From: a bacterium | GTDB taxonomy: Bacteria > Cyanobacteriota > Vampirovibrionia > Gastranaerophilales > Gastranaerophilaceae | Length of the DNA: 48,252 nucleotides | Direction of reading: 5' to 3' | Assembly: GCA_017542305.1 (NCBI GenBank) | Contig: JAFXXK010000009.1 | Span: forward strand, 1-48,252 | Shown: positions 37,584 through 39,462 of the stretch, one piece after another | How positions within the stretch are numbered: position 1 is the stretch's first letter | Layout: each line of letters starts with the position of its first letter | The notes under the pieces: model-generated | Seen by the model: only the letters and a program-made list of their open reading frames with translations | Database searches by the model: none | Told to the model about the DNA's origin: nothing | Position numbers and translations under genes: made by a program

Positions 37584-38537
37584 ATGGCAATTATTGATGT
37601 AAAAAATTTGAATTTGGGTTTTAATACCGAGTCAGGATTTCGGCAGGCATTGTGGGATGTTTCTTTTTCGCTGGAAGCAGGTAAGATGCTTGCCCTTGTC
37701 GGTGAGTCGGGTTGTGGTAAAACAATTAGTGCAATGAGCATATTACAGCTTTTACCCAAAACGGCAAAAATTTTATCCGGTGAAATTATTTATAGCGGCG
37801 AGAATATTTTGACCCGTTCCAACGAGGATATGCAACAGATAAGAGGGAAAAAGATAGCATTAATTCCGCAGGATCCTATGACTTCACTAAATCCATTGTT
37901 TACCGTCGGGGAACAGTTATTAGAGGTTATAAGAATACATCAGGGTTTAAAGGGAAAGGCTGCTGAAGAAAAAGCTGTTGAAGCTCTGGAAAAAGTTCAG
38001 ATACCAATGGCAAAAGAGCGGTTAAAATCTTATCCTCATGAGTTTTCCGGCGGAATGAAACAGAGAGCGATTATCGCAATGGCGCTTGCCTGCAATGCAC
38101 AAATTCTTATAGCGGATGAGCCGACTACCGCACTGGATGTAACCATTCAGTCGCAGATAATGGATTTAATTAAGCAGATAATTGTTAATGATAATACGTC
38201 AGTTTTGTTTATTACGCATGATTTGGCACTGGTAAGGGAGAATGCTGACGATGTTGCGGTTATGTATGCGGGCAGAATTGTCGAAAAATCCGATGCGTAT
38301 GAATTTTTTAAAAATACCTGTCATCCATATTCTCAGGCATTATTAAATTCTTTACCTAATGTCAGAGGAAGAAATTTAGAAACAATAAAAGGGCAGCCAC
38401 CGTCAATAAATCAGGATATTTCAGGCTGTCGTTTCCATCCGAGATGCAAAAAATGTTATGAGCCGTGTAAAGAGCTTATTCCTGAATTAACTGCTTGTTC
38501 AGATAACCATTTTTGTGCATGCCATTTGGTGCCTTAA
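37584..38537 (+). CDS. ABC transporter ATP-binding protein, OppD/DppD type
   Basis: A 317-residue ATPase of the peptide/nickel importer class. Walker A GESGCGKTIS (about residues 42-51), Q-loop IPQDPMTSLNP (about 98-108), signature FSGGMKQR (about 157-164), Walker B ILIADEPTTALD (about 178-189) and H-loop FITHDLA (about 216). The C-terminal extension GCRFHPRCKKCYEPCKE holds the Cys cluster typical of OppD/DppD. No permease, second ATPase or binding protein is adjacent, so it is an orphan subunit here. A TATAAT (37572-37577) ends 6 nt before the ATG without SD, another candidate leaderless start. Confidence 0.92.
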   Translation: MAIIDVKNLNLGFNTESGFRQALWDVSFSLEAGKMLALVGESGCGKTISAMSILQLLPKTAKILSGEIIYSGENILTRSNEDMQQIRGKKIALIPQDPMTSLNPLFTVGEQLLEVIRIHQGLKGKAAEEKAVEALEKVQIPMAKERLKSYPHEFSGGMKQRAIIAMALACNAQILIADEPTTALDVTIQSQIMDLIKQIIVNDNTSVLFITHDLALVRENADDVAVMYAGRIVEKSDAYEFFKNTCHPYSQALLNSLPNVRGRNLETIKGQPPSINQDISGCRFHPRCKKCYEPCKELIPELTACSDNHFCACHLVP

Positions 38538-38990: not shown

Positions 38991-39092
38991 TTGACAACTA
39001 AATATGGGCATGTTGGTACTCTGCCGAACAAAAAGATTAAGTATCTTTTTGTGAGAGGGGTAGACACGCCGAAAGTTTCGAAAGAAACTTTT
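38991..39092 (+). repeat. tRNA-Leu leader unit 1 (102 bp)
   Basis: It begins TTGACAACTAAATAT, then copies the tRNA acceptor 5' strand GGGCATG (39006-39012). A hairpin ACAAAAAGAT / ATCTTTTTGT (39028-39037 / 39043-39052, loop TAAGT) follows, then GGTAGACACGC as in the tRNA D-arm. It ends with AAAGTTTC-GAAA-GAAACTTT plus T run (39072-39094), a terminator-like hairpin with a GNRA loop. Confidence 0.85.
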
Positions 39093-39194
39093 TTGACAAC
39101 TAAATATGGGCATGTGGTACTCTGCCGAACAAAAACAATTAAGTATTGTTTTTGTGAGAGGGGTAGACACGCCGAAAGTTTCGGAAGAAACTTT
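39093..39194 (+). repeat. tRNA-Leu leader unit 2 (102 bp)
   Basis: Same length and order as the unit at 38991. The internal hairpin is ACAAAAACAAT / ATTGTTTTTGT (39129-39139 / 39145-39155) with the same TAAGT loop. The differences from unit 1 fall on both arms and keep pairing. The closing hairpin is AAAGTTTC-GGAA-GAAACTTT (39175-39194), again with a GNRA loop. Confidence 0.85.
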
Positions 39195-39209
39195 TTGAAA
39201 ACTAAATAT

Positions 39210-39288
39210 GGGCATGTGGTGGAATGGTAGACACGCTAGTCTTAGGAACTAGTGCTAACGCGTGGGAGTTCGAGTCTCTTCATGCCCA
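39210..39288 (+). tRNA. tRNA-Leu(UAG)
   Basis: 79 nt: acceptor GGGCATG/CATGCCC, anticodon stem CTAGT/ACTAG around CTTAGGA with anticodon TAG, short variable arm, T-arm GGGAG-TTCGAGT-CTCTT with two G-U pairs, discriminator A. CCA is not encoded. It is preceded by two repeat units that copy its 5' end. Confidence 0.93.
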
Positions 39289-39289
39289 A
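39272..39289 (+). repeat. 18-bp tRNA 3'-end repeat, left copy
   Basis: GAGTCTCTTCATGCCCAA, the last 17 nt of tRNA-Leu(UAG) plus one base. An identical copy lies at 39445-39462, 173 bp downstream, the arrangement left by tRNA-targeted site-specific integration. Confidence 0.8.
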
Positions 39290-39327: not shown

Positions 39328-39352
39328 AGTTGAGCATAGCGACATCAAACTT

Positions 39353-39381
39353 GTTATTTTTGTTTGTTGAACAAAAATAAC
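39353..39381. repeat. Perfect 12-bp inverted repeat
   Basis: GTTATTTTTGTT (39353-39364), loop TGTTG, AACAAAAATAAC (39370-39381). It lies inside the 173-bp segment between the two tRNA 3'-end copies. Its GAACAAAAA run resembles the hairpin arms of the leader units, but no T-run follows. Confidence 0.8.
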
Positions 39382-39444
39382 CGAGTTCTACCCTAACGAG
39401 TATCCTGCCTCGTACGGCTCGTGAATCTCGCCTACGATGCAAGA

Positions 39445-39462
39445 GAGTCTCTTCATGCCCAA
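39445..39462 (+). repeat. 18-bp tRNA 3'-end repeat, right copy
   Basis: Identical to 39272-39289. The sequence immediately upstream (CTACGATGCAAGAGA) does not form the rest of a tRNA, so this is a 3' fragment only. Confidence 0.8.

Follow-up and report, generated by a model that had tools for sequence, protein, structure and literature searches.

A miniature hairpin lodged in partial tRNA gene copies is probably a protein-free mobile element of Gastranaerophilales

Introduction

The cyanobacterial small dispersed repeats (SDRs) described by Elhai et al. in 2008 are reportedly structured, protein-free sequences of 21-27 nt that show compensatory changes and nesting, and RNA intermediates are said to have been proposed for them. 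SDR5 is one of the cyanobacterial SDRs and is dealt with in sections of PMC4390886. REP palindromes tagged with GTAG or CGTC are 20-40 bp long, occur in high copy number and form sub-families with alternative complementary stems, with G-T pairing noted (passages of PMC3733652), and the Rickettsia palindromic elements (RPE) appear in the same passages as a CGTC class inserted in protein genes. Fragments of tRNA genes can derive from integrated elements, ~21 kb in one example given in part of PMC9897764.

We analyzed a stretch of 48,252 nucleotides (the window), which is contig C19 of a 1.70-Mb Gastranaerophilales genome (G000; completeness 77.9%) and carries two tandem units upstream of tRNA-Leu(UAG). 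Each unit contains a hairpin, here called the core, composed of A-CTCTGCCGA, a variable stem with a small loop, and GAGAGG, and mostly 38-47 bp long including the leading A. Like the SDRs, by repute, the core is a very small, dispersed, structured and protein-free repeat with compensatory stem changes, nesting and signs of mobility; it is set apart from them, as they are said to be, by its length, by the replacement of a GNA-headed segment, and by duplicated tRNA ends with fixed polarity. It shares high copy number and sub-families with alternative complementary stems with the REP palindromes, as far as the passages of PMC3733652 portray them, and those passages make no mention of REP residence in tRNA copies. 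Like RPE, it is a short palindrome spread within one lineage, whereas tRNA-end duplication and the GNA rule belong to the core and not to RPE as that source, in part, describes them. The core element is described in none of the open-access literature that we searched.

Results

Two units that imitate tRNA-Leu(UAG) precede the intact gene

The first-pass annotation had described two 102-bp units directly before the tRNA gene, each with GGGCATG at offset 15 and each imitating the 5' end of tRNA-Leu(UAG) around a hairpin, and the sequence confirmed this: unit 1 lies at 38991-39092 and unit 2 at 39093-39194 (both on the + strand, as are all features given here), and the real gene is likewise preceded by TTGAAAACTAAATAT from 39195. 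Both units have the order leader TTGACAACTAAATAT, tRNA 5' copy GGGCATGTGGT, A, CTCTGCCGA-stem-TAAGT-stem-GAGAGG, tRNA copy GGTAGACACGC and a small closing hairpin. Unit 1 thus comprises, after its leader copy, the tRNA 5' copy t1 (39006-39017, GGGCATGTTGGT; one T more than GGGCATGTGGT), core hairpin 1 (39018-39058), the copied 3' side of the tRNA D-arm, t2 (39059-39069, GGTAGACACGC), and a closing hairpin with a GAAA loop (39070-39092). In unit 2 the corresponding parts are t1 (39108-39118, GGGCATGTGGT), core hairpin 2 (39119-39161), which occupies the place of the tRNA's GGAAT, t2 (39162-39172), and a closing hairpin with a GGAA loop (39173-39194). The cores were located by pattern search, the tRNA-derived segments and the site of core 2 by flank alignment, and the closing hairpins by folding. 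The leader with which each unit opens is nearly identical to that of the real tRNA (39195-39208), and both cores have the intact gene (39209-39289 by ARAGORN, 39210-39288 by Rfam) on their GAGAGG side. Compared with shuffled sequences, unit 1 folded with z -6.0 and unit 2 with z -5.5, and 0 of 200 shuffles equaled them.

The inserted stems were correctly reported to differ on both arms around a constant TAAGT loop; they are longer than had been claimed (ACAAAAAGAT/ATCTTTTTGT and ACAAAAACAAT/ATTGTTTTTGT), and the constant stem base CTCTGCCGA...GAGAGG of both units had been overlooked, as had a downstream copy of the tRNA's 3' end (39445-39462, GAGTCTCTTCATGCCCAA), found by our duplicate search. 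The idea that the closing hairpins are terminators was not upheld, as the terminator scan found 0. Neither unit reached an Rfam gathering threshold, which in the window only tRNAs did, and the lone Rfam match inside a unit was to a microRNA model, below threshold. A TTGAAAACTAAATA-like leader, which we take to resemble the boxA of stable RNA operons, stands directly 5' of tRNA-Leu(UAG) whether units are present or absent (window 39195-39208; loci L018-L023).

The core is a dispersed repeat of one bacterial order

The exact pattern CTCTGCCGA...GAGAGG was found in 168 of 192 Gastranaerophilales genomes, at 0 to 86 matches per genome and in 31 of the 45 genera sampled, while a reversed-pattern control gave 0 matches in all 192. 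None of five genomes from the class outside the order matched, and in the rest of the phylum the core pattern matched 14 of 156 genomes versus 16 of 156 for the reversed control, so that matches outside the order are at chance level. Three contigs with a core carry titles from outside the order (L128 and L138, Heliobacteriaceae; L133, Muribaculaceae) and may be misbinned. The search accepts only exact end motifs and so overlooks degenerate copies; a small number of matches, such as the single ones in G143 and G144, are due to chance. That the core is more than chance follows from the window's own genome, in which all seven exact-pattern copies lie within 152 bp of a tRNA gene. The base before CTCTGCCGA was A in 172 of 173 unique copies, and TA followed GAGAGG in 67 of the 173. 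At two loci (L101, L136) two different cores adjoin with few bases between them.

Carriage by phages or plasmids was rejected, as searches of such collections gave no core match at E 1e-5. A pattern scan of IMG/VR gave at least 120 matches; among the matches listed, a loose pairing filter retained 10, and a single one (L211) was core-like by eye. This piece of a viral contig holds what is apparently a real core, and no tRNA was detected on it.

Cores reside in partial copies of tRNA and 5S genes

In four genomes (G000, G004, G024 and G127), 47 of 55 cores lay within 500 bp of a tRNA gene, compared with ~2% expected (150 of 151 tRNA genes taken into the count). The nearest tRNA gene was on the GAGAGG side of 44 of these 47 cores (in 38 cases on the core's own strand, in 6 on the other), and the remaining three stand between clustered tRNAs, with a same-strand tRNA gene on the GAGAGG side within 265 bp. 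A wider set of 145 copies comprised 90 near a tRNA gene (500 bp), 25 with none within 500 bp, and 30 too close to the edge of their locus to tell. The tRNA gene was downstream in 85 of the 90, and in four of the other five the flanks match the downstream tRNA.

Most cores sit in a partial duplicate of the neighboring tRNA: flank alignment (113 unique tRNA-near copies kept, of which 82 passed both flank thresholds) showed that the left flank duplicates the gene's outer end, whose sequence the right flank resumes a few nucleotides later. A filled site at a tRNA gene or at the 5S gene thus duplicates in part the outer end and flank of that gene, and the intact gene is on the GAGAGG side. Within the copies the core is mostly in the D-arm; in antisense copies it is in the T-loop or anticodon loop, and in copies of tRNA-Ile on the 5' side of the anticodon stem. 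At one locus a 5S rRNA gene has two antisense partial copies in which the core replaces GGAAC. Tandem arrays of units precede many tRNA genes. ARAGORN also reported, at L355 (G000:C26:72811-72883), a tRNA with the anticodon TTA; it would decode a stop codon and may be a misassignment.

The tRNAs adjoining a core are those for Leu, Pro, Lys, Val, Met, Thr, Ile, Ala, Phe, Arg, Glu and Gln, in sense or antisense orientation. The first-pass annotation had offered the units as a decoy or attenuator for tRNA-Leu(UAG); we rejected a device specific to this tRNA, since the same core stands beside many other tRNAs and a 5S gene and also at tRNA-free sites.

Cores are present or absent at related tRNA-Leu(UAG) loci

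An ORF of the window that we take to be ABC-transporter-like (37584-38537) was present in 10 of 17 loci, and in seven of them (L009, L011, L014, L015, L016, L020 and L021) it immediately precedes tRNA-Leu(UAG) and shares its strand. Cores stand before the tRNA in G000 (two), G012 (three) and G003 (two), and none do in G004, G002, G001 and G007; by eye, G001 has no copy at all, G007 has a coreless remnant, and G004 and G002 have a different insert. Of the seven same-ORF loci, the window included, three carry units before this tRNA and four are without an upstream core, a pattern that does not support a device for tRNA-Leu(UAG). Comparison thus shows that the core comes and goes at one locus arrangement. 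Upstream of tRNA-Leu(UAG) in L016 and L020, the other insert (...GAGCGGTGGCGTTTAATGCGAGG...) lies in a tRNA 5' copy at the position of the core in relatives.

The core replaces a short segment that begins with GNA

The replaced segment starts with GNA in 57 of 58 unique contexts, versus 6.3% of tRNA positions as background; GNA was judged from the left flank alone, and the 58 contexts are related, falling into 16 position/strand classes of which some are one site shifted by tRNA numbering. Counting gaps of 0-12 nt only, the length replaced in the 82 aligned copies was 5 nt in 37, 6 in 27, 4 in 10, 7 in 7 and 8 in 1. This distinguishes the core from a MITE: in place of a flanking target-site duplication, 4-7 nt are replaced in 81 of the 82 tRNA-copy sites. 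The extra bases 3' of GAGAGG equaled the replaced length minus 3 in 44 of 78 copies. The proposition that the core always replaces a hairpin loop was ruled out by sites in the D-stem and anticodon stem.

We joined the flanks of filled sites and searched the loci for the joined sequence, which yielded uninterrupted counterparts for five non-tRNA site families and one tRNA-like family. The sequence standing where the core is in the filled site was GTAA in L082, GAATC in L091 (resembling an antisense tRNA T-arm), GAAG in L141, GAAG inside family B (see below) in the comparison of L051 and L146 with L381, GAAGT in that of L178 with L079, and GGACG in that of L177 and L434 with L051. L124 against L178 showed no clear replacement, and several other pairs were tRNA sites or uninterpretable. 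The uninterrupted sites are often paralogs of the filled ones, and the evidence for movement consists of filled and uninterrupted sites.

A second structured family and tRNA-end duplicates that lack the core

Between the terminator-like hairpin of tRNA-Leu(UAG) and the copy of its 3' end lies a second structured sequence, family B (39340-39444, fold z -4.0). Many members (window 39340-39462; L336-L431) share, by eye, pieces resembling GAGTGCGGAGG...GACACGTTTAATGCGA. Eight family-B loci searched against Rfam gave tRNAs above threshold and otherwise weak sub-threshold matches, and an Rfam search of 20 loci found only a 5S gene. Since the core of L051 and L146 lies, by comparison with L381, inside a family-B-like repeat, the two families nest.

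Around 108 tRNA genes of three genomes, a duplicate of the tRNA end (score cut-off 11; 4 of 211 in the mismatched control) accompanied the core motif in 17 upstream and 4 downstream flanks, and occurred without it in 4 upstream and 37 downstream flanks, 33 of the latter 37 scoring at least 12; in seven flanks the core motif was present but that tRNA was not duplicated. Duplication therefore occurs both with and without the core. The downstream copies start at about position 58, extend through the end of the tRNA and lie ~100-320 bp past the gene; by eye, they are often followed by the flank that follows the gene itself. Upstream of tRNA-Arg(tct) in L389 there is a coreless partial copy of tRNA-Arg (positions 8-42), and the segment 717-771 scores as a tRNA (Rfam 38.7 bits).

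Near-identical unit arrays and such coreless copies would be expected if all units had been made locally, by tandem duplication and palindrome correction during replication, and template switching can produce perfect palindromes. However, the fixed GNA junction and the recurrence of one core motif at numerous unrelated sites across 31 of the 45 sampled genera require transfer between loci, and we regard an origin without any mobility as quite improbable.

Partial tRNA duplicates beside inserts also bring to mind integrases with att sites in tRNA genes, of which the units would be remnants; the copied tRNA 3' ends of family B resemble att repeats, and tRNA fragments beside intact tRNAs are known to arise by integration (part of PMC9897764). 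Compared with the fragments described there, the insert is a bare hairpin, often interrupting the D-arm at the 5' end. No integrase gene lies between the repeats, which on the 5' side are spaced about 100 bp (102 bp) apart and on the 3' side lie 155 bp past the tRNA. D-, anticodon and T-arms are interrupted on either strand, bases are replaced, and 5S and non-tRNA repeats are invaded as well. This origin is very improbable.

Stem variation favors folding of the + strand

Among 53 unique cores with 25-nt interiors, at least two Watson-Crick pair types occur at 9 of 10 stem positions, and the stem changes are, from this alignment, evidently compensatory. The corrected mismatch count over 114 cores (from 193 unique interiors, of which 146 had a stem and 114 were in simple register) was 16 G-T to 3 A-C, with 11:1 at pair 1 and 5:0 at pairs 2-7. 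This differs from 1:1 (p = 0.004, the cells not being independent), and a count of distinct stem backgrounds, listed by hand, gave 12:3 (p = 0.035). The corresponding count for the acceptor and T stems in a set of 99 unique tRNAs was 86:6, from which the core ratio cannot be distinguished (Fisher p = 0.18); a bracket-based tRNA control (178:0) was dropped because ARAGORN brackets omit mismatches. A G-T/A-C parity (16:16) that would have argued for a DNA-level palindrome did not hold, since 13 of those A-C cells represent a single loop-proximal position in one sub-family, miscounted as stem. The excess of G-T over A-C therefore favors folding of the + strand, and the + strand fold, as RNA or single-stranded DNA, is the likelier selected form. 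The earlier argument that covariation implies selected RNA structure thus holds for the compensatory stems, seen in many copies, and for the G-T excess; as to RNA, single-stranded DNA fits too. A core sub-family with GTGACTAAATGTCAC has a recurrent G-G mismatch in the stem (19 interior cells). A kink-turn was also considered as a reading of CTCTGCCGA/GAGAGG.

The 16:3 excess, indistinguishable from that of tRNA, is also compatible with a functional RNA located in the leader of the pre-tRNA (a decoy, an attenuator or a modulator of RNase P) selected for its structure, and the strong folds, tRNA mimicry, compensatory stem changes and tandem arrays before many tRNAs are in keeping with such a role. 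However, G-T makes up 1.4% of paired cells in the core versus 7.3% in tRNA stems, antisense copies lie past the tRNA 3' end, other copies are at tRNA-free sites, four of the seven matching loci have no upstream core, and there is neither an Rfam family above threshold nor a terminator match. We judge a functional leader RNA unlikely.

Discussion

We consider it probable, from comparison of these sequences, that the units are local copies of a new mobile hairpin of Gastranaerophilales, miniature and protein-free, and that its arrival duplicates the end of the tRNA and so spares the essential gene. The spreading entity would be the fold of the + strand, either RNA or single-stranded DNA. A strand of DNA whose end lies immediately before GNA might be extended across the core in the direction CTCTGCCGA to GAGAGG, rejoin the target a few nucleotides past GNA, and then restart ahead of its own target. 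Where the target is an essential tRNA gene, the only survivors would be events that re-copied the gene, which would explain why the broken copy is always outside the intact gene; at non-essential sites simple replacement would suffice. That the polarity is fixed on both strands points to directional synthesis. Tandem units could arise by recombination between the repeated leaders, and a cellular function would be unnecessary for explaining the units. The spacer is complementary to the unit's own tRNA copy (t1) in 20% of 55 units, compared with a mean of 5.9% and a maximum of 14% in a permuted control, and this complementarity gives modest support to fold-back copying.

A Y1 transposase (RAYT- or TnpA-like) acting in trans could instead mobilize the core as a palindrome of the REP or IS200/IS605 type. 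The core is REP-like in size, palindromic form and dispersion, 60 of the 192 genomes have a Y1 match (PF01797), and 48 of the 173 unique copies have GTAG at their 3' foot. However, the presence of the core does not require Y1, the transposase associated with REP palindromes: 132 of 192 genomes are without a match, among them G000, G004, G024 and G061 with 7, 20, 8 and 41 copies. The GTAG is not the constant tag of those palindromes, is on the 3' side and is D-arm sequence in many tRNA copies, and target bases are replaced. Mobilization by Y1 is improbable. The reverse transcriptase profile RVT_1 (PF00078) matched 84 of 192 genomes, and neither profile matched G004 (20 copies) or G061 (41 copies); as both are absent from genomes with many copies, a Y1 transposase or a reverse transcriptase as the sole driver was rejected. 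G000 has two RVT_1 matches, and a reverse transcriptase may be involved there.

As to how the protein-free hairpin might move, GNA triloops are exceptionally stable DNA mini-hairpin loops. Tentatively, a folded strand of ~45 nt, RNA or DNA, might propagate without a transposase by templated synthesis at GNA, with the same event re-copying the invaded tRNA gene; we hold this to be possible and rather doubtful. If it were true, the unit of spread would be the fold, and a built-in repair of the target would explain the concentration on essential RNA genes. A template-switch reading, if true, would make these loci a natural record of bacterial polymerases jumping at hairpins.

Our verdict is that the core works as the cyanobacterial SDRs reportedly do and resembles the REPs, yet its unusual target rule and the proposed re-copying of tRNA set it apart. 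For annotators it is a warning that covarying hairpins with tRNA mimicry need not regulate that tRNA. The rule is sharp enough to test: a GNA-headed segment replaced, a fixed polarity and a duplicated tRNA end. With a duplicate and core in 21 flanks and a duplicate only in 41 more, among 108 tRNA genes, tRNA loci can evidently be heavily remodeled while the gene survives, and very small mobile hairpins would probably extend to these gut-dwelling relatives of cyanobacteria.
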